A stretch of 36,296 nucleotides of DNA from positions 1-36,296 of IMG/VR virus record IMGVR_UViG_3300048118_000009. One strand, given 5' to 3'. Numbering within the stretch: position 1 is the stretch's first letter; every line of letters starts with the position of its first letter. The notes under the pieces were generated by a model that did no database searches, had not been told where the DNA came from, and was given only the letters and a program-made list of their open reading frames with translations. This DNA is from a virus. Position numbers and translations under genes: made by a program. This document shows positions 1-36,296 of the stretch, piece by piece.

Positions 1-3000
1 ACAAAGCCAAAGAAGTAATACTAAAATAGAACAGATCACGAGAATAGAAGTCATAGTCAGTCCCTAACACAGCGCCTTTGTTCAACACGTTAGCATCGTA
101 GTTAATTGCTACACCGTCTGACGAAGGTACTGTAGAACCCGATGTCATGTTGAAGACTATAGCTAGATCAAGATCGTCACCAAGAGCTATGTGGTTCGGG
201 TCTGTTACTGCGTCTAGTTGAGTCTTGTCCATTTGGTTTATGTAAGATGGTGCTGCATATTGAAATACGTCAGTAGTATCGCCAACAATGTAAAAATTAG
301 CGCCTGAATTAGCAAAAGCAAAACCTCTTGGAGTAGTTTCTTGAGAAGCAACACTAAAACTTATAGTGCTGTAACTAGCCGTAGATAAATCCCAAGCAGT
401 AGACAAGTTGTATTGATGTACAGAGTCTGAGTTAAAGCCAAGAACATACATTTCTGTTCCATCATTATTAAACTGAATACTAGCAGGTGTTGATTCTTGA
501 GACGTAACGCTAAAACTTACAGAGTCATAACTAGCCGTAGATACATCCCAAGCAGTAGATAATGTGTATTGATATACCGTGTCGTTAGTTAAACCAAGCA
601 TATACATTTTTGTTCCGTCTGATTTGAATGCAATATCATACGGATTAGTATCTTGACTGCTTACAGAAAAACTTACACTGTCATAAGAAGCTGTAGACAA
701 ATCCCAAGCAGTAGAACACGAGTAGGCATAAACGCTATCTGCGTCTCCTGTTACAACATAAAACTTTAATCCATCATCTCTAAAGTACAATCCATTTACG
801 TTGTTATCTTGCAAAGTAAACGACACTGAGTCATAAGAACCTGTAGTTATATCAAATGGCGTTGACATAGAGTATTGATACAGAGCCTGTGGAGTTCCGT
901 TGTGTAAAACATAAAACTTAGTTCCGTCCGACTTTACCGCTATGTCTGCATAAAAAACACCAAGAGGAGGGCTGTAGCTTTTGCTTGAGTAACTAGCATT
1001 CGCTAAATTATAACCCGCAGCAGCACCCTCCATAGCCTCAGCCAACGTAGCTAACTCTGTATTCGTAGCGCCGTTTACCCAAGTCTCTGAAGCGTATGTA
1101 CCGTTAGAGTTGTACTGCCAAGTCCCTGCGTTGTTCCTGACAATATCTCTCTCGCCATCAGTGTTATCAATGACAGTCCAAGTAGTACGGTCGTCTGTGG
1201 AGATAGCGTAGTAGACTTCACCGTCACCTGCGTTTTGGTCAGCCGTCATAGAGTTGATGTCTGTCCAGTAGGTAGAGTCTATTGACTGTGTGGTGTGTAC
1301 TGGTTGGTAGCCTGTTGGGATGTTATAAGAGCCTACTAAGTATTCTGTTACTCCAGAAAAGCCAGCAATAAACATCTTAGTGCCATCATTGTTAAAAGTT
1401 ATATCAAGTGGAATTGTTTCTTGAGATGCCACAGAAAAAGACTGAGCGTAAGATGCGGTTAAAACATCAAAACCTGTAGACAATGTATACTCATACACTG
1501 CATCTCCATTAAAGCCCACAATATACATCTTAGTTCCATCATTATTGAATGTTACTCCTGCTGGATTTGAGTCTTGAGTAATATTTATATCTTGTTGCGA
1601 CCCAGCGGTAGAAACGTCAAAGGCGGTAGATAATGTGTATTGATATAGCTTATTTGTCCCGTCACCACTAAAGTACATCTTTGTGCCATCATTGTTGAAT
1701 GCTATGCCATACGGTGTTCCTTCTATGCCTCCCACATAAAAATTTTGAGAGTAACTAGCGGTAGAAATATTAAATGCAGTAGATAATGTGTACTCATTGA
1801 TGTCATCTCCCACATTCCCACTAAGGTACATCTTAGTGCCATCATTATTAAAAGTAAGTCCTCTAGGTGCAGTATCTTGAGAAGCCACACTAAAACTTAC
1901 AGAGTCATAAGAGGCTGTTGAAGTATCAAACGCAGTAGACAATGTATATTGATATATTGCATCAGTATTTTGCCCAAGAACAAACATCTTTGTGCCGTCA
2001 GTGTTAAATGCTATTCCTGTCGGATTTGATTCTTGAGAAGAAGTTGAAAAACTTTGAGAATAAGAGGAGGTAGAAATATCAAACTTGTTAGTAACAACCC
2101 CACTAAGCTCCAAATCCCCATCCGCAGCATTATAGACAACACCGTACATCTCCCAAGAACCTGACGCGACCTGAGCGTATGATGTAGGCGCTGTAGTTTC
2201 TACATAGCTACCGTCTGTGGCTGTTAAGACAAACGCGCCACTGTTGGCTTCGATGGTCTTGCCTACGTCTGCTGAGGCGAATGAGCCTGTGCCGAGTTGT
2301 AGTGTAGAAGGAATAGTATATTCGTAAATGTTGTCAGCAGTATTTTCTATAATATAAAACTTTGATAAATCAGGATTACCCGTAATTCCTAATGGCACAG
2401 TTGCCTGAGACGCGACACTAAAACTTAATGAGCTATAAGAAGCTGTTGTAATATCAAACCCAGTTGATAAATTATATTGATAAACTGTGTCGTTATTTAT
2501 TCCTACAGTTATCATTCTAGTGCCGTCTGAATTAAACTGCATACCTCTTGTGGATGTTTCTTGACTTACACTGAAGCTGTTAGAAGTATAGCTTGCAGTT
2601 GATAAATCAAAACCAGTTGTTAAAGCATATTCATAAACAGTATTATTGGTTCTTCCAACCATAAACATTTTAGTGCCATCAGTATTGAAAGCTAGATCCT
2701 GCGGAAATGTGTCTTGCGCTGTTACGGAAAAACTTTGAGAATAAGTCGCTGTTGAAACATTATAAGCTGTAGTTAAATTGTATTCGTAAACAGTATCAGT
2801 AGCACCACCCATTAAGAACATTTTTGTACCATTAGAATTAAATTCTATAGCCAATGGTTGAGTGTCTTGGCTACTTACAAGTAAACTAATACTAGCGTAA
2901 GAAGCAGTAGATATAGAATATGGAGTGGTTAAGTTGTACTGATAAATAGTTGCAGCGTTTTGACCAACCATATACAAAATAGTGCCGTCATTATTAAAAG

Positions 3001-3397
3001 ATACGCCTTGCGGCGTTCCGTCTTGACCGCCTACATAAAAAGAAGAGCTTGAACTAGCCTCATTAACTCCACCTACAACCCAATCCAAAGTAGTCGCATA
3101 AGCACTATCAAGTCTCGTGTAATTCTCTGTAGTCGAATTAACATCCCAAGAGTTATTAGTCACGCCTGACTGTGGTACTTCTTTAGTCACAGAAACGACA
3201 GGCGCAAGCACAGAGCTAGTCAGTGAGATTGAAGCTGACTCGCCGTTTGTGAAGGTCTTGGTTAGTGTGCCACTGGTGACAGAAATGTTATCTAGCGCAG
3301 TGTCCAGTGTATTAAGCTGTGTCTGCACATTAGAGGTAACAGTGTCAATGTAGTTAATCGTTGCCGCGCTATCGGCTATGTCTCGTGACTTGCTCAT
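1..3397 (-). CDS. Large tail protein with three groups of five propeller-like repeats (runs off left edge)
   Basis: Starts MSKSRDIADSAATIN at 3397, right after the stop of the upstream 98-residue gene, and stays open to the left edge. Joined across the circular junction to 36093-36296 it would be about 1140 residues. The N-terminal part resembles coiled or linker regions of environmental tail fibres (motif SNVQTQL). The rest is built from about 15 degenerate units of roughly 53 residues with a core like GIxFNxDGTKMYxxG followed by DxVYQYTLSTAFDxSTASY. This looks like NHL/WD-type beta-propeller blades. The units fall into three blocks of five, separated by non-repeat inserts. Role inferred: distal tail or receptor-binding protein in the adhesion cluster next to the fibre gene. 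The last 15 residues at the left edge differ from the right-end copy. Alternative: a host-surface glycan-binding or baseplate-like decoration. Confidence 0.85.
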   Translation of the reverse strand, partial: MSKSRDIADSAATINYIDTVTSNVQTQLNTLDTALDNISVTSGTLTKTFTNGESASISLTSSVLAPVVSVTKEVPQSGVTNNSWDVNSTTENYTRLDSAYATTLDWVVGGVNEASSSSSFYVGGQDGTPQGVSFNNDGTILYMVGQNAATIYQYNLTTPYSISTASYASISLLVSSQDTQPLAIEFNSNGTKMFLMGGATDTVYEYNLTTAYNVSTATYSQSFSVTAQDTFPQDLAFNTDGTKMFMVGRTNNTVYEYALTTGFDLSTASYTSNSFSVSQETSTRGMQFNSDGTRMITVGINNDTVYQYNLSTGFDITTASYSSLSFSVASQATVPLGITGNPDLSKFYIIENTADNIYEYTIPSTLQLGTGSFASADVGKTIEANSGAFVLTATDGSYVETTAPTSYAQVASGSWEMYGVVYNAADGDLELSGVVTNKFDISTSSYSQSFSTSSQESNPTGIAFNTDGTKMFVLGQNTDAIYQYTLSTAFDTSTASYDSVSFSVASQDTAPRGLTFNNDGTKMYLSGNVGDDINEYTLSTAFNISTASYSQNFYVGGIEGTPYGIAFNNDGTKMYFSGDGTNKLYQYTLSTAFDVSTAGSQQDINITQDSNPAGVTFNNDGTKMYIVGFNGDAVYEYTLSTGFDVLTASYAQSFSVASQETIPLDITFNNDGTKMFIAGFSGVTEYLVGSYNIPTGYQPVHTTQSIDSTYWTDINSMTADQNAGDGEVYYAISTDDRTTWTVIDNTDGERDIVRNNAGTWQYNSNGTYASETWVNGATNTELATLAEAMEGAAAGYNLANASYSSKSYSPPLGVFYADIAVKSDGTKFYVLHNGTPQALYQYSMSTPFDITTGSYDSVSFTLQDNNVNGLYFRDDGLKFYVVTGDADSVYAYSCSTAWDLSTASYDSVSFSVSSQDTNPYDIAFKSDGTKMYMLGLTNDTVYQYTLSTAWDVSTASYDSVSFSVTSQESTPASIQFNNDGTEMYVLGFNSDSVHQYNLSTAWDLSTASYSTISFSVASQETTPRGFAFANSGANFYIVGDTTDVFQYAAPSYINQMDKTQLDAVTDPNHIALGDDLDLAIVFNMTSGSTVPSSDGVAINYDANVLNKGAVLGTDYDFYSRDLFYFSITSLAL
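47..178. repeat. Terminal redundancy, left copy
   Basis: Positions 47-178 match 36165-36296 with three mismatches (62, 68, 74). From 75/36193 onward the match is exact for 104 bp and ends at the right edge. Left of 47 the two copies diverge in DNA, yet their translations still align weakly (ITSLA against ITALA). This is the signature of a circular or circularly permuted genome whose overlap falls in a variable tail gene, with two alleles in the source population. A unit genome of about 36,118 bp is implied. Confidence 0.8.
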
Positions 3398-3399
3398 CG

Positions 3400-3696
3400 T
3401 TATACCTCTGGTTCTGTAGGCCAAGTAACTTCGTTAGGAAAGCCTGCTTGACTTGGAATGTCTCTTAATGCTTGGCGGTAGACTGTCCATACTGCTTTAT
3501 CTACTGGCGCATCTGCTACTTGCGTCCAATCTGACTCTGTTAGTTTAGCGTCTCGCTCTTTGCGAATCTCAGCAGCAGATCGGTCATATGCACCTGCTGC
3601 CCACGCTGCTTCTTTTGCATCTATCGCAGATTGCTCTTCTTCAGTTAGAGGAATCTCAGTAATTATATTTGTATTCACATCCAATATTTTTTTCAT
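3400..3696 (-). CDS. Tail fibre assembly / chaperone-like protein
   Basis: 98 residues. The C-terminal half has the pattern RDAKLTESDWTQVADAP then YRQALRDIPSQ, GFPNEVTWP. This resembles the small proteins found beside fibre genes in many tailed phages (tail fibre assembly / XkdW-like, with the recurrent DWTQ...YRQALRD...P..FP..V.WP signature). The charged N-terminus (LTEEEQSAIDAKEAAW) is probably helical. It sits between the fibre gene and the propeller gene, as expected for a chaperone or linker of adhesion proteins. The family assignment is by motif memory; the chaperone role is inferred from position. Confidence 0.7.
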   Translation of the reverse strand: MKKILDVNTNIITEIPLTEEEQSAIDAKEAAWAAGAYDRSAAEIRKERDAKLTESDWTQVADAPVDKAVWTVYRQALRDIPSQAGFPNEVTWPTEPEV

Positions 3697-27071: not shown

Positions 27072-27090
27072 GGTGTTCTCCGTCAAGAGT

Positions 27091-27112: not shown

Positions 27113-27382
27113 TTAGGCTATGATTTCTACTCTGGCATCAAAGTCAAAAGAAGTTTCGAAAGGAACGTAACCAGTGTCGCCGATTCGATCTGATCCCTCA
27201 GAGCTGTCAGCATCGATGCTAATAGTGTAGCCCTTAAAAAATTGACGACCAGTCTCAGGGTGGATAACCCAGCCTTTGTCAACGACAACGCCTTCAATGA
27301 ACTGGTCATCACGGCTAGGCATAGGTTGGAAATCATAAGCTCGGATTTTTTGGCCAATTTCTGCAATGTTTTCAAATTTCAT
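27113..27382 (-). CDS. Early small protein, unknown (89 aa)
   Basis: Start at MKFENIAEIGQKIRAYDFQP (27382) with ACGGGAGAAAC ahead of ATG. Contains beta-strand-like segments (VVVDKGWVIHPETGRQFFKG) and an acidic, polar C-terminus (DADSSEGSDRIG, DFDARVEIIA). No cysteine, membrane segment or known motif. It is the first gene of a promoter-leader cassette (P1, 27431-27458) nearly identical to that of the 107-residue gene starting at 28148. Confidence 0.75.
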   Translation of the reverse strand: MKFENIAEIGQKIRAYDFQPMPSRDDQFIEGVVVDKGWVIHPETGRQFFKGYTISIDADSSEGSDRIGDTGYVPFETSFDFDARVEIIA

Positions 27383-27399
27383 TTTGTTTCTCCCGTTTG

Positions 27400-27420
27400 G
27401 GAGGAGCACCGCGCCCCTCC
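27400..27420 (-). promoter_or_regulatory. 8-bp leader hairpin of cassette P1
   Basis: Minus-strand GGAGGGGC-GCGGU-GCUCCUCC, 8 bp with one G.U, loop of five. The copy at 28166-28186 differs at the first pair (U-A for G-C) and in the loop. It is 15-20 bases before ATG, between transcription start and the ribosome site. Confidence 0.7.
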
Positions 27421-27430
27421 AATGGTTCCC

Positions 27431-27458
27431 ATCTTAGCAGAACCATCAGGGGTGTCAA
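27431..27458 (-). promoter_or_regulatory. Promoter P1 (sigma70-like)
   Basis: TTGACA (27458-27453), 16 bp, TAAGAT (27436-27431) on the minus strand. It drives the 89-residue gene at 27382 through a structured leader. Very similar to P2 at 28196-28223. Confidence 0.8.
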
Positions 27459-27474
27459 CCACTTTAGATGACAA

Positions 27475-27783: not shown

Positions 27784-27803
27784 GATGTTTCTCCGTCAAG
27801 AGT

Positions 27804-27827: not shown

Positions 27828-28148
27828 TTAATAAGCGCCAGAGTAGTTGCCTTTAAACTCGCCGAAGATGTTGCCGCGAGCAAAGTTTGTGGCAGGGCCA
27901 GACCAGCTTTTGGCCATTAGGATGTCACCAGCTTTGAACTTTTCGCCGTCTTCCGCGACTATAAAGCCCCAAACTGTAGGCTGGTCGTTTAAGCCAGTGA
28001 TAATTTTGTAATACTTTCGGCCTTTCTCGTAACCTACACCTTCGCACCAGTTTTTTACAAACTCGTCGCTGTGATCTCCGCGATTAGCAAATTGTTCAGC
28101 AAAAGATGATTTCATTGATTCGAGAAGGTTGTTAAGTGCTTGTTCCAT
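27828..28148 (-). CDS. Early protein, unknown (106 aa)
   Basis: Start at MEQALNNLLESMKSSFAEQF (28148), with ACGGGAGAAACATC before ATG; longer in-frame starts would run into the leader and promoter. The N-terminal helix is followed by DEFVKNWCEGVGYEKGRKYY and a beta-rich part (TVWGFIVAEDGEKFKAGDIL) that resembles a small OB- or SH3-like barrel. Driven by P2 (28196-28223). Function unknown. Confidence 0.75.
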   Translation of the reverse strand: MEQALNNLLESMKSSFAEQFANRGDHSDEFVKNWCEGVGYEKGRKYYKIITGLNDQPTVWGFIVAEDGEKFKAGDILMAKSWSGPATNFARGNIFGEFKGNYSGAY

Positions 28149-28165
28149 GATGTTTCTCCCGTTGG

Positions 28166-28186
28166 TGAGGAGCACCATGCCCCTCA
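28166..28186 (-). promoter_or_regulatory. 8-bp leader hairpin of cassette P2
   Basis: Minus-strand UGAGGGGC-AUGGU-GCUCCUCA; same length and loop size as the hairpin of cassette P1, with the outermost pair changed from G-C to U-A. Compensatory change supports a conserved RNA fold. Confidence 0.7.
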
Positions 28187-28195
28187 ATGGTTCCC

Positions 28196-28223
28196 ATTCT
28201 ACAGAAACCACTGGGGGTGTCAA
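28196..28223 (-). promoter_or_regulatory. Promoter P2 (sigma70-like)
   Basis: TTGACA (28223-28218), 16 bp, TAGAAT (28201-28196) on the minus strand. The -35 region, spacer and leader are a near copy of P1, so the cassette was duplicated. Confidence 0.8.
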
Positions 28224-28247
28224 CCCTTTTGGGTGACAAAAGTTAAA

Positions 28248-28448: not shown

Positions 28449-28467
28449 GTCTTCGTCTCCCGAAAAG

Positions 28468-28746: not shown

Positions 28747-28767
28747 TAGATTATCTCCGTCAAGAGC

Positions 28768-29330: not shown

Positions 29331-29358
29331 TTGAAGAACACAACATATAGTGTAGAAT
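29331..29358 (+). promoter_or_regulatory. Plus-strand promoter candidate
   Basis: TTGAAG (29331-29336), 16 bp, TAGAAT (29353-29358). The -10 and spacer equal those of promoter P2. Predicted start near 29365 coincides with the first base of the outer helix of the downstream RNA. An 8-bp inverted repeat (ATATGTTG/CAACATAT) overlaps the -35 and could be an operator. A weaker minus-strand promoter is also conceivable here. Confidence 0.5.
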
Positions 29359-29364
29359 AGCCCT

Positions 29365-29567
29365 TGTCGGGTTTCTGGCTACACTTGCTTCTCCGTATTG
29401 ATCTAGCCGGAATTCAGGGCCTTAACAACCCACCGACATCTAACTTTCACAGATTACTCTTACAGAAATAATTCTGCAAGCGAAAACGTGATTTAATCTA
29501 TATGCTTTTTATTTCTGATTCTTTTTTTTAAGTCCCGACACGTTGTGAAACGCTCGGGCTTTTTTTT
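29365..29567 (+). ncRNA. Candidate small RNA 2 with anti-Shine-Dalgarno loop
   Basis: About 203 nt between a promoter-like element and a strong terminator. TGTCGG (29365-29370) pairs with CCGACA (29433-29438). Nested inside, CTGGCTA (29375-29381) pairs with TAGCCGG (29404-29410, one U.G). The 22-nt loop (29382-29403) exposes CUUCUCCGU (29388-29396), complementary to ACGGAGAA in the ribosome sites of the genes starting at 27071 and 27783. A 3' intrinsic terminator has a GUGA tetraloop. No ORF. Regulation in trans is inferred; the folds are seen by hand and not energy-scored. Confidence 0.55.
29534..29567 (+). terminator. Rho-independent terminator, plus strand
   Basis: CCCGA/TCGGG outer stem, small internal loop, CGTT/AACG inner stem closed by a GUGA (GNRA) loop, then C and eight Ts. 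The opposite strand has no T-run after the stem, so it serves plus-strand transcription. It ends just before the minus-strand gene at 29578. Confidence 0.85.
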
Positions 29568-29577
29568 GACTGAAATT

Positions 29578-31916: not shown

Positions 31917-32512
31917 TTTAACGTCTCCGTCAGTTCATTAATTTTAATTGCAGTTTCTTTTAGCAGCTCTTCCGCTGCGGCCAGCAGTTTATCGTCCCGC
32001 TTGACGTTCAAGATAAAAGGCTTCATTTCTGGATGGTAAGCGTAGAACCACCAGTTAGACCGCCCAGTGACGAGCATACAACCGTGGACCTGCTGGACGT
32101 ATGCCGATGGAAGTTTGCCTGATCTTTTGTATGCTATCATGGTTGACGCAGAAGGGCACTTGATTTCTAAACCGGAGTCGTCACCTATGAGGGAGTCAGG
32201 TGAGCAACCTATCTCGTAATCGTCCATTTTAATCAGGCCGACGAGCTCCGCTGACAAGCCGGTTTCTAGCTCGAACATATCCCTAGCCTCCGGCTCTAGA
32301 TCGTTACCTCGCTGCATGGCTTCCGACTTAAACGTCTCTGTAGGCTTGCCAGTGATGCGTTCCGCTACAAGAGTATTGATAAGCGCGTCAGCCTGAGTAG
32401 ACGCCTTGCCGGCGCCTGTGAATACCTTGCTGAAGTTACTTGCAGTAATGACTCCGCAGCGCTGTGCAAGCCACGCGTCGCTACCCTGAATACAATCAAT
32501 TATTCGTGGCAT
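31913..32512 (-). CDS. YqaJ/lambda-exonuclease-like recombination nuclease
   Basis: 199 residues. W14 and R18 near the N-terminus (SDAWLAQRCGVITAS), MQRGNDLEPEARDMFE, GCSPDSLIG (catalytic D106), LEIKCPS (E116-x-K118) and YVQQVHGCMLV follow the YqaJ/lambda Exo order of a PD-(D/E)XK 5'-3' exonuclease. It pairs with the ERF annealing protein upstream to make a two-component recombinase. ATGA overlap with the SSB-tailed gene. Confidence 0.9.
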   Translation of the reverse strand: MPRIIDCIQGSDAWLAQRCGVITASNFSKVFTGAGKASTQADALINTLVAERITGKPTETFKSEAMQRGNDLEPEARDMFELETGLSAELVGLIKMDDYEIGCSPDSLIGDDSGLEIKCPSASTMIAYKRSGKLPSAYVQQVHGCMLVTGRSNWWFYAYHPEMKPFILNVKRDDKLLAAAEELLKETAIKINELTETLK

Positions 32513-32636: not shown

Positions 32637-33252
32637 TTTTGGCCTCTTTCTTTGAGATAAGATTAGCGACAATGCGCACCGCTTTATCCTGAGGAATTAG
32701 CTTTGTTTCAGAAGCTTTAGCCCATGCAGTGTAGCGCTGAACGTCTTCACCGAGCTCTTCGCACAGAGAGATAATCTGAGCAAGGGTCTCGGCTGTTACT
32801 AATGCTGGCTGTGAGGCCACCTGCTGAATCTGCTCGCTGTCAGCGTCTTCAACGCCGTCAATAGGAATGCAGAAGGCTTGGAACAAGAAGTATTTATAAG
32901 CGGCCGTCATAGCCTTATTTACTGCCTTGTCGCTAGTGTCCAGAGCTTCGCCGTAGGCAGTGTGGCAAATCGAATCTCCCTCGCTGTCATACAGTACAAA
33001 ACCTACCTCTAGGATAACGTGAGACGCTACACCGCCATTCTTGGTGGCCGTTGTCTTGATGTCTTTGCTTAGGACGTTAGGGATAATCAAAACGCCATGC
33101 TCAGCAATGATCGGCGCCAGCGTGTTAAGCACGTCGTCGATACCACGGAACTTGTAGCCTTGGTGGCTGTTCTTTTGATTTTTAGCGATTCCGACCTTGG
33201 ATAGATCAGACTGGACAGCGCTGAGCGCCTTGAAGATAGTACGTTGTGTCAT
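32620..33252 (-). CDS. erf: ERF-family single-strand annealing protein
   Basis: 210 residues. GYKFRGIDDVLNTLAPIIAE (32-51) and SDKAVNKAMTAAYKYFLFQA (about 127-146) are the two ERF-family signatures. The C-terminal 60 residues are Gln/Ala-rich and variable, as usual in this family. ERF forms rings on ssDNA and promotes annealing; in P22 it circularises terminally redundant DNA after injection, which this permuted genome would need. Ribosome site CTGACGGAGTAAAGAAA before ATG; promoter at 33285-33313. Confidence 0.9.
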   Translation of the reverse strand: MTQRTIFKALSAVQSDLSKVGIAKNQKNSHQGYKFRGIDDVLNTLAPIIAEHGVLIIPNVLSKDIKTTATKNGGVASHVILEVGFVLYDSEGDSICHTAYGEALDTSDKAVNKAMTAAYKYFLFQAFCIPIDGVEDADSEQIQQVASQPALVTAETLAQIISLCEELGEDVQRYTAWAKASETKLIPQDKAVRIVANLISKKEAKNEGQP

Positions 33253-33284
33253 TTTCTTTACTCCGTCAGTTAATAACGTAGACG

Positions 33285-33313
33285 ATGGTAAAGAGATGCG
33301 TATCTGCTGTCAA
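33285..33313 (-). promoter_or_regulatory. Promoter for the recombination operon
   Basis: TTGACA (33313-33308), 17 bp, TACCAT (33290-33285) on the minus strand, 30-35 bases before the ERF ATG. It lies back to back with the plus-strand small RNA 1 start, so the two could interfere. Confidence 0.7.
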
Positions 33314-33348: not shown

Positions 33349-33354
33349 TATACT
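33349..33354 (+). promoter_or_regulatory. -10 element (TATACT) for small RNA 1
   Basis: TATACT at 33349-33354 on the plus strand, with an ATGACA-like -35 about 20 bp upstream (imperfect spacing). The predicted start, about 33361, is the base before the first hairpin. Confidence 0.4.
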
Positions 33355-33360
33355 CTGTCG

Positions 33361-33432
33361 AGTGGTTATCTCCGTCAGCTACCACCGCAGACCCCTAACT
33401 GGCTCTCCCGCTGGTTAGGGGTCTTTTTTTTT
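33361..33432 (+). ncRNA. Candidate small RNA 1 with anti-Shine-Dalgarno loop
   Basis: About 72 nt, two hairpins and nothing else. Hairpin 1: GUGGU (33362-33366) / ACCAC (33381-33385) with a 14-nt loop UAUCUCCGUCAGCU. Hairpin 2 is a 10-11 bp terminator. The loop is complementary over 11 nt to UGACGGAGAUA before the gene at 28746, over 10 nt to the site of the gene at 31916, and over 9 nt to those of 33252, 27071 and 27783. On the minus strand this GACGGAGA copy has no start codon behind it. A compact trans-acting translation repressor is inferred. Confidence 0.6.
33389..33432 (+). terminator. Rho-independent terminator, plus strand
   Basis: AGACCCCTAAC / GTTAGGGGTCT, 10-11 perfect bp, loop of 14, followed by nine Ts (33424-33432). 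The opposite strand lacks a T-run, so it is not the lysozyme terminator. It overlaps the last codon of the lysozyme gene. Confidence 0.9.
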
Positions 33433-33847
33433 ACGGGTATCTTCCGGTCCGCACCATGCAGTCTATATCACTGCTGCGCGTGGGCCCGACCTGATCAGCC
33501 CATTTCGAATCAAGGAACTCGTCGGCCGACTTGCTGAAGTCACCCTCAGCCATCGCGGCCAGAGCCTTTTTGAAGGTAAGTAGGCGAGTGATACCCAGAT
33601 TAAAGCAAAGGTTTATCATAGCGTCCTGCCGGACCCTACAGAGCTCCAGATACCATTTGAAGTTGTGTCGGAGCTCTCGGTCGCAGCGAGCTATATCGTT
33701 ATCAAGCAGATATAAACACTCGTCACGAGACAAGCCAAGCGACTCGAGATTTCTTCCGACCCCAATAGTGAGATTCCCAGTTGTGTCCTCGTAGGGCTTA
33801 TTCCTGAGAGACTCGTGCCTGATTAGCAGGCGTTGTAGCCTATCCAT
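33431..33847 (-). CDS. T4-type lysozyme (endolysin, GH24)
   Basis: 138 residues. HESLRNKPYEDTTGNLTIGV carries the E12-x8-D21-x5-T27 catalytic triad of T4/P22 lysozymes; RQDAMINLCFNLG and LLTFKKALAAMAEGDF follow as in the family. No signal peptide, so it needs the holin to cross the membrane. The stop of the 87-residue gene overlaps its ATG (TAATG). Last gene of the lysis cassette. Confidence 0.93.
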   Translation of the reverse strand: MDRLQRLLIRHESLRNKPYEDTTGNLTIGVGRNLESLGLSRDECLYLLDNDIARCDRELRHNFKWYLELCRVRQDAMINLCFNLGITRLLTFKKALAAMAEGDFSKSADEFLDSKWADQVGPTRSSDIDCMVRTGRYP

Positions 33848-34905: not shown

Positions 34906-36093
34906 CTATAAAGTCAGATCAGGGACCTTGCGGGTATCCCTGATTTGGTAAACGTGACGAAGGCATTCCCCGCCATCTCTGTGAAAGGTTATCTGCGTCA
35001 TCACGCTAGCAGACTGGTAGCCGGCCCCTGCGTGCCAAGAGTCGGGAGGAGACAAGGTCCCGAAGGTCTCGATTTTGCATCCATTGTCTGTCTCCAAAAG
35101 TTGTTGATGGTGCACGTGCCCCACCAACCACTTGCGATAGTTTGTCTGCGCCCACTGCTCAGGCAGCATTCTAGGGAGAATCGCCGCTAGCTTGGCTGGC
35201 TTCATGCGGTCGCCATGGTGACAGGCCAGCAAATTTTTCCCGAAGACTAGGGTATGCGTGAATCCGTGAGGCTCTAAAATTTTTACGCGCTTTTCTTTTG
35301 CGTAGTAGAATTTCAGGATCAGCGCCAAAGCGATAGCTGTATCAGAATCATGATTGCCTCGCGCCATAATCACAGTGACAGTTTTATGCTTTGATAGCAT
35401 TTTCTCAATAGCGAAGATGAATGTCTGAGCGGCTGTCTCTAAGACGATTTCAATTCTTGTATCGACATCTAGTTTTGTGCCTGCAAACGTAGTCCCGCCA
35501 GATCCATTAGCGTGTATAAAATCACCCACGTTCACCAGCAGCGCCTGTTCAGATGGCGTTGATGCCGAAACTAGGTACTCGATAGCTTCTAGGTGACACT
35601 GAGCTGCTATCTTCGTATCGTAATCTCGGGATTTCGTCTCACGTGCATCGCTGCGCATACCGAAGTGCGCATCCCCAATTATGATGCTGGGGAGGAGGTC
35701 AGGATCGTACTTTTTAGCCTTTGGCATAGCCTTGGGCTTGTATTGCGGAAGACCTTTAATAAGACCATCCACGAACCCTTGCAGAGCTTTATCACGCTCT
35801 GCCTCGGTCATGGTGCGTTTAGTCTTCAACCAGACCTTGTTATTTTCATTGTCTGAGGTGTATATACTGCGACCGACCACTATTTCGCCTTCAGGAACCA
35901 GCCGCCTAGCATCGAAATTATCTGAATAGCCACGCTGAGCCGCGAAGTTTTTAACCGCACCAATGTGGTCGCGCAGTGTAGACGGAGAAACACCCAAGAC
36001 ACCCGCCGCTTTGGCAACCACTTCCCCGCAGTCTTCCCAAGCCTTTATAGCCTCGCGTTGGCGTTCAGTCTTGGCGTAGTCTATTAGACTCAT
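34906..36093 (-). CDS. Metallophosphoesterase with N-terminal helix-turn-helix
   Basis: 395 residues. Residues 10-60 (RQREAIKAWEDCGEVVAKAA, GVLGVSPSTLRDHIGAVKNF) look like an HTH of the resolvase/terminase-small type. Residues 135-395 are a calcineurin-like phosphoesterase: GDAH (140-143), GD (190-191), GNHD (246-249), HHGD (292-295), GHVH (325-328), all metal-ligand blocks present. Such proteins occur in phage genomes near tail or packaging genes. DNA-guided phosphoesterase or nuclease activity is plausible; the substrate is unknown. One-base overlap with the tail gene stop. Confidence 0.85.
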   Translation of the reverse strand: MSLIDYAKTERQREAIKAWEDCGEVVAKAAGVLGVSPSTLRDHIGAVKNFAAQRGYSDNFDARRLVPEGEIVVGRSIYTSDNENNKVWLKTKRTMTEAERDKALQGFVDGLIKGLPQYKPKAMPKAKKYDPDLLPSIIIGDAHFGMRSDARETKSRDYDTKIAAQCHLEAIEYLVSASTPSEQALLVNVGDFIHANGSGGTTFAGTKLDVDTRIEIVLETAAQTFIFAIEKMLSKHKTVTVIMARGNHDSDTAIALALILKFYYAKEKRVKILEPHGFTHTLVFGKNLLACHHGDRMKPAKLAAILPRMLPEQWAQTNYRKWLVGHVHHQQLLETDNGCKIETFGTLSPPDSWHAGAGYQSASVMTQITFHRDGGECLRHVYQIRDTRKVPDLTL

Positions 36094-36296
36094 TAAACAA
36101 CCCGCACTTTCAGATTATTCCCTGCCAACGCTGTAATCCTTACAGAGTTCTGAGCAGGAGCATCGAAGTCATAGTCAGTTCCTAAGACAGCACCTTTGTT
36201 CAACACGTTAGCATCGTAGTTAATTGCTACACCGTCTGACGAAGGTACTGTAGAACCCGATGTCATGTTGAAGACTATAGCTAGATCAAGATCGTC
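36093..36296 (-). CDS. C-terminal end of the large tail propeller protein (continues from position 1 across the circular junction)
   Basis: The minus strand from 36296 reads the same 44 residues found at 178-47 on the left (DDLDLAIVFNMTSGS at the start), in the same frame. It then ends with ITALAGNNLKVRVV and a TAA at 36095-36093. The stop overlaps the ATG of the metallophosphoesterase gene by one base (TAATG), so the two are translationally coupled. This is the true C-terminus of the tail protein that begins at 3397 once the genome is circularised. Confidence 0.85.
   Translation of the reverse strand, partial: DDLDLAIVFNMTSGSTVPSSDGVAINYDANVLNKGAVLGTDYDFDAPAQNSVRITALAGNNLKVRVV
36165..36296. 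repeat. Terminal redundancy, right copy
   Basis: Partner of 47-178 at a constant offset of 36,118 bp. The reading frame of the tail gene is kept across the join, which supports true circularity over a chance repeat. Confidence 0.8.

Follow-up and report, generated by a model that had tools for sequence, protein, structure and literature searches.

The locus and its plus-strand element

The window analysed here is the whole of a virus record, a 36.3 kb phage genome of 36,296 bases in which all recognised genes lie on the minus strand, among them erf (Pfam ERF), a YqaJ-type exonuclease, NinG, a helicase, terminase, a metallophosphoesterase and a phage lysozyme. The late operon ends at the stop of this endolysin at 33431, and between that position and the start of erf (33252-32620, minus strand; identified by Pfam PF04404) sits an element on the plus strand, with erf, one small Cro-like HTH gene and small genes without assigned function nearby and an early promoter diverging from it upstream of erf. 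The phages that bear it are a group of uncultured aquatic phages; neither the region nor the element alone had a match by blastn in 50,697 phage records, no annotated phage record being similar at the DNA level, and no relative of the window's Erf group was found among bacterial genomes. At the window ends, two minus-strand open reading frames (2-3424 and 36093-36296) have the protein sequence MTSGSTVPSSDGVAINYDANVLNKGAVLGTDYDF in common, an indication of terminal redundancy or of a circular genome. The first of these encodes a large tail-like protein with many repeats of a FNxDGTKMFxxGxxxDxVYQYxLST-type motif.

The element is predicted to encode a small RNA with a hairpin followed by an intrinsic terminator (Table 1). 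The fold of 33350-33440 has a z of -4.1, and the terminator is the strongest in the window in an energy scan of both strands (-26.5 against -13.8 kcal/mol for the next), giving the RNA a 3' end with the GC-rich hairpin and U-run of intrinsically terminated small RNAs. No -35 box is visible at normal spacing (16-18 nt) from the TATACT box, and the promoter is a prediction from sequence. A small ORF within the RNA was rejected, as 33361-33432 has no ATG. Gathering and permissive Rfam searches returned no family over the gathering cut-off, the top sub-threshold family being ctRNA_pGA1 (23.3 bits against 45). A first-pass annotation of this DNA had placed the TATACT box, hairpin 1, its 14-nt loop and the terminator correctly in both coordinates and sequence, but it passed over the lack of a visible -35 box.

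Elsewhere in the window, 29353-29568 (plus strand) holds a second conserved plus-strand RNA candidate of ~205 nt, with counterparts at a syntenic place in L277, L280, L413 and L361. Its features are a -10 box, a 5' domain (TTGTCGGGTT...AACCCACCGAC) that is conserved in five genomes, of which G003 has lost the interior, and a T8-tailed terminator that adjoins a DUF3310 gene; no Rfam match to it was over cut-off.

Table 1. Positions in the window of the predicted small RNA, its parts and the ribosome sites complementary to its loops.
Feature	Position	Strand	Basis
-10 box TATACT, predicted small-RNA promoter	33349..33354	+	sequence; position kept in 8 variants
Predicted 72-nt small RNA	33361..33432 (start ~33361)	+	fold z; covariance-model matches
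Hairpin 1, 5-bp stem GUGGU/ACCAC (DNA GTGGT 33362-33366, ACCAC 33381-33385), 14-nt recognition loop 1 UAUCUCCGUCAGCU (DNA TATCTCCGTCAGCT, 33367-33380)	33362..33385	+	sequence, fold
Intrinsic terminator, 15 bp (stem 33389-33424, T-run up to 33432); loop UCUCCC(G), candidate recognition loop 2	33389..33432	+	energy scan; covarying pairs; invariant U-G pair
Early promoter TTGACA-17-TACCAT upstream of erf, divergent	33285..33313	-	consensus scan
Class-1 ribosome site CTGACGGAGT of erf (gene 33252-32620)	33260..33269	-	motif scan; Pfam
Class-1 ribosome site CTGACGGAGA of gene 31916-31608	31924..31933	-	motif scan
Class-1 ribosome site TTGACGGAGA of gene 28746-28468	28754..28763	-	motif scan
Class-1 ribosome site TTGACGGAGA of gene 27783-27475	27790..27799	-	motif scan
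Class-1 ribosome site TTGACGGAGA of gene 27071-26859	27077..27086	-	motif scan
Class-2 ribosome site CGGGAGA of gene 28448-28248	28456..28462	-	motif scan
Class-2 ribosome site CGGGAGA of gene 28148-27828	28155..28161	-	motif scan
Class-2 ribosome site CGGGAGA of gene 27382-27113	27389..27395	-	motif scan

Conservation and strand of the element

The lysozyme and Erf proteins, used as queries against viral contigs, gave relatives with the same gene order and with the element between endolysin and erf. Eight sequence variants were distinguished (the window, L004, L006, L040, L042, L012/L013 (G004), L283 and L284), with Erf identity to the window from 100% down to 64%; these form one group of related phages, and counts over them are not independent. 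A covariance model built on five variants recovered the three that had been left out, G004, L283 and L284, at 65.6, 60.1 and 55.6 bits (E 1e-16 to 1e-13), and gave no clear match among more distantly related Erf phages or among unrelated viral contigs. Loose DNA pattern scans of viral contigs gave mostly chance matches, and among the matches listed a hairpin plus terminator occurred only in the same group. The plus-strand terminator is present in all eight variants, as is the -10 box, which keeps its position and reads TATACT, TAGACT, TATTAT or TAGTAT. The loop 1 core UCUCCGUC is invariant (8/8), as is CUCCCG in loop 2 (8/8). Covariation among relatives, proposed in the first-pass annotation as a check, was found in the diverged relatives, where the stems of both hairpins vary by compensatory substitutions while the loop 1 core stays constant.

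In the alignment used, a covariance-model fit of six variants (earlier MAFFT alignments misplaced L012), 99% of cells pair, and in the terminator helix three of 12 pairs are changed on both sides and 100% are paired, counts that lean towards structure because the alignment is fitted to it; sliding the partners by 1-3 columns destroyed the covariation signal. Only one pair of hairpin 1 is changed on both sides, the fifth, which is U-A in five variants and G-C in L283 and L284; L012 loses this pair, and its stem is extended outward instead. The terminator helix holds a U-G pair that is invariant in 8/8 variants and pairs on the plus strand only, together with a G-U/G-C/A-U pair. Because of such wobble pairs, every variant forms 12/12 terminator pairs on the plus strand against 10-11 on the minus strand, and only on the plus strand is the hairpin followed by the T-run. 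Taken together, the wobble pairs and the plus-only T-run make a plus-strand RNA a better candidate than a minus-strand RNA.

The same features bear on a simpler account, that the hairpins serve to stop or insulate transcription between the late and early operons and that the match of loop 1 to early ribosome sites, described below, is a relic of a duplicated site. Such a role would suit an element whose position coincides exactly with the end of the late operon (endolysin stop 33431), where intrinsic terminators are common, but with a T-run on the plus strand only the late, minus-strand operon would not be stopped, and no plus-strand gene lies upstream of the element. A relic would moreover be expected to drift, whereas the loop core stays the same in variants that differ in flanks and stems, and we regard this account as unlikely.

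The loops and the early ribosome sites

The two loops of the RNA are complementary to the ribosome-binding sequences that early genes use most often, TGACGGAG and (A/T)CGGGAG respectively. TGACGGAG has six copies in the window, each on the minus strand. Five of them are followed after 6-8 nt by the ATG of an early gene (the class-1 genes, at 33252, 31916, 28746, 27783 and 27071), and the sixth is the complement of loop 1 itself. Loop 1 is complementary over 9-11 nt to all five class-1 leaders, and so to mRNAs encoded elsewhere, and these five genes give the best five loop 1 duplexes among 47 window leaders (-16.3 to -19.0 kcal/mol). When loop 1 was shuffled with its generic CUCC kept, one shuffle in 1000 matched the real result, and the match therefore exceeds generic anti-Shine-Dalgarno pairing. 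The first-pass annotation had already argued for a match beyond a generic GGAG and had suggested target prediction for the loop over all leaders; the matches of 11, 10 and 9 nt that it reported upstream of 28746, 31916 and 33252 are exact, but its list of targets missed 27783 and 27071, which carry the same motif, and the CGGGAGA class (28448, 28148 and 27382).

Complementarity to the erf leader extends over 9-12 bases in each of the seven variants compared, and in L283 a flanking base differs from the window in loop and erf leader alike, giving TTGACGGAGATA and a 12-nt match. The ssb gene of L283 (Pfam SSB) lies behind TGACGGAGA at a spacing of 11, a site similar to that of gene 31916-31608. 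Relatives G001-G007 show the same TGACGGAG pattern, with few copies elsewhere. Across the clade sample, 18 of the 27 copies of TGACGGAG are at ribosome sites, and the NNNNGGAG ribosome 8-mers are, commonest first, TGACGGAG (23), AACGGGAG (10) and TTCGGGAG (5), these counts including related genomes and hence events that are not independent; no clade genome has antisense TGACGGAG copies. In 64 element-less Erf-phage loci (363 kb), none of 20 copies of TGACGGAG stands before a start codon, and AAGGAG is used at 70 start sites. The relative G008, which is without the element and has a lysozyme 70% identical, likewise lacks TGACGGAG and has CGGGAGA at no start site and GGAG at 14. Several class-1 leaders resemble duplicated cassettes, and the motif common to them could be partly due to copying.

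Pairing over the Shine-Dalgarno sequence itself normally represses, which argues against a plus-strand RNA that is real but works as an activator or stabiliser, or on host mRNAs, instead of repressing the early genes of the phage. The match also takes in UGAC, well past the generic core, and it is to early genes of the phage itself that the motif is tied. CUCC loops are able to pair with many bacterial ribosome sites, and phage RNAs that act on host genes are known, such as PreS and DicF (PMC12197685), but we think it quite improbable that the element is of this kind.

CGGGAG, which is contained in AACGGGAG and TTCGGGAG, is the complement of loop 2. In the shuffle test in the window 104 of 1000 shuffles do as well as loop 2, which alone is not significant; the match to class-2 sites is suggestive only, and we do not claim loop 2 as an independently proven reader of target sites. 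The class-2 sites may instead pair with the CUCC of their own leaders. Two small early genes have a common promoter-plus-leader cassette (27373-27460 and 28139-28230, minus strand), TTGACACCCC...GGGAACCATT...CTCC...ACGGGAGAAAC-ATG, in which the ribosome site's GGAG is a possible pairing partner for the leader CUCC. Genes also differ in class between genomes, the 27783 homologue being class 1 in the window and class 2 in G001 and G005, and the 27382 homologue class 2 in the window and class 1 in G004. We tentatively propose that the two-loop RNA reads two codes, UGACGGAGA by loop 1 and CGGGAGA by loop 2, in which case nearly all independently led early genes would form one translational regulon under the control of the RNA, with genes swapping codes in evolution without leaving it.

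Proposed function and comparison with known RNAs

The anatomy of the element, its conservation and covariation, the match of loop to motif and the co-occurrence of the two are the basis on which we consider it probable that the element encodes a trans-acting small RNA of the phage that works as an anti-Shine-Dalgarno sequence and lowers the expression of a set of early genes, erf among them and, in relatives, ssb as well. The reading in the first-pass annotation, a trans-acting translational repressor, is supported at the level of sequence by the conserved element, the invariant loop core, the kept 9-12 nt complementarity and the absence of the motif from element-less start sites; the contrary case that it had named, a relative that keeps the terminator and the early motif UGACGGAG and loses loop complementarity, was seen in 0/8 variants. 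It is very unlikely that the minus-strand RNA is the functional one, with a late read-through hairpin that shows CUGACGGAG and titrates, as a sponge or decoy, some protein or RNA specific for the early ribosome motif: the minus strand folds too, and late transcripts probably cross the element because inspection of the region for terminators found no minus-strand terminator there, but the conserved -10 box, the T-run and the wobble pairs all favour the plus strand, and no protein partner is known.

For a trans-acting small RNA of the plus strand, we infer transcription, pairing in the cell, repression and timing as follows. The RNA would be transcribed away from the early operon and stop at its own terminator, with a short hairpin displaying loop 1, UCUCCGUCA. 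By pairing over 9-12 nt, this loop would cover UGACGGAGA in the ribosome sites of five or more early genes (erf together with four further genes of the window, and ssb in relatives, with small early proteins without assigned function among the targets) and block 30S binding or initiation, and the terminator loop UCUCCCG may act likewise on a second early-gene group with CGGGAGA. As loop 1 is complementary to a motif of several early genes, one short RNA probably lowers the whole gene set, and the early genes would be one translational set with one RNA as its reader. Their proteins would be lowered or switched off, most likely as the dosage of the RNA gene rises in replication; late shut-off or dosage control is plausible because the RNA and the early promoter are divergent and replication adds copies of the RNA gene. 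If this is true, a private ribosome-site motif on many early genes and one small RNA to read it would amount to a simple RNA-only control, by which a temporal gene class is controlled without a regulatory protein. Most characterised phage regulatory RNAs have one phage mRNA or host genes as their targets.

The c4 antisense RNA of P1/P7 is a 77-nt phage RNA whose recognition sequences are thought to lie in loops and which blocks the ribosome site of a phage mRNA (PMC12197685). The window RNA is predicted to resemble it as a phage RNA with loop recognition aimed at a ribosome site in phage mRNA, but c4 acts on ant mRNA for immunity, whereas the target motif in the window is common to several separate early genes. 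No immunity genes were recognised, and no ant gene was found among the proteins scanned, so that the ant target of c4 and sar has no counterpart here. The sar RNA of P22 and OOP RNA of lambda, of 68-77 nt, also regulate phage mRNAs (PMC12197685), but each has one main target (ant for sar; cII, overlapped in cis, for OOP), while the window RNA would act on several genes in trans. In the cuckoo/alpha-r14 RNAs (NfeR1) an anti-Shine-Dalgarno motif is conserved in hairpin loops while the stems diverge, and there are many mRNA targets (PMC10746234); the Caulobacter SisA-D siblings have a single-stranded anti-Shine-Dalgarno stretch common to all (PMC12559287). The eight variants of the window RNA are like alpha-r14 in that the loop motif is constant while the stems diverge. 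However, the alpha-r14 and SisA-D RNAs are chromosomal RNAs of alphaproteobacteria with CCUCCUCCC or UUUCCUCCCU, whereas the window RNA is a phage RNA whose UCUCCGUCA matches a phage-specific motif; CCUCCUCCC is not found in its unpaired regions, the loops being UCUCCGUCA and UCUCCCG. With another motif, another location and another set of targets, and with no match to any Rfam model, the window RNA belongs to none of these groups, and it would nevertheless work like c4, sar, OOP and cuckoo/alpha-r14.
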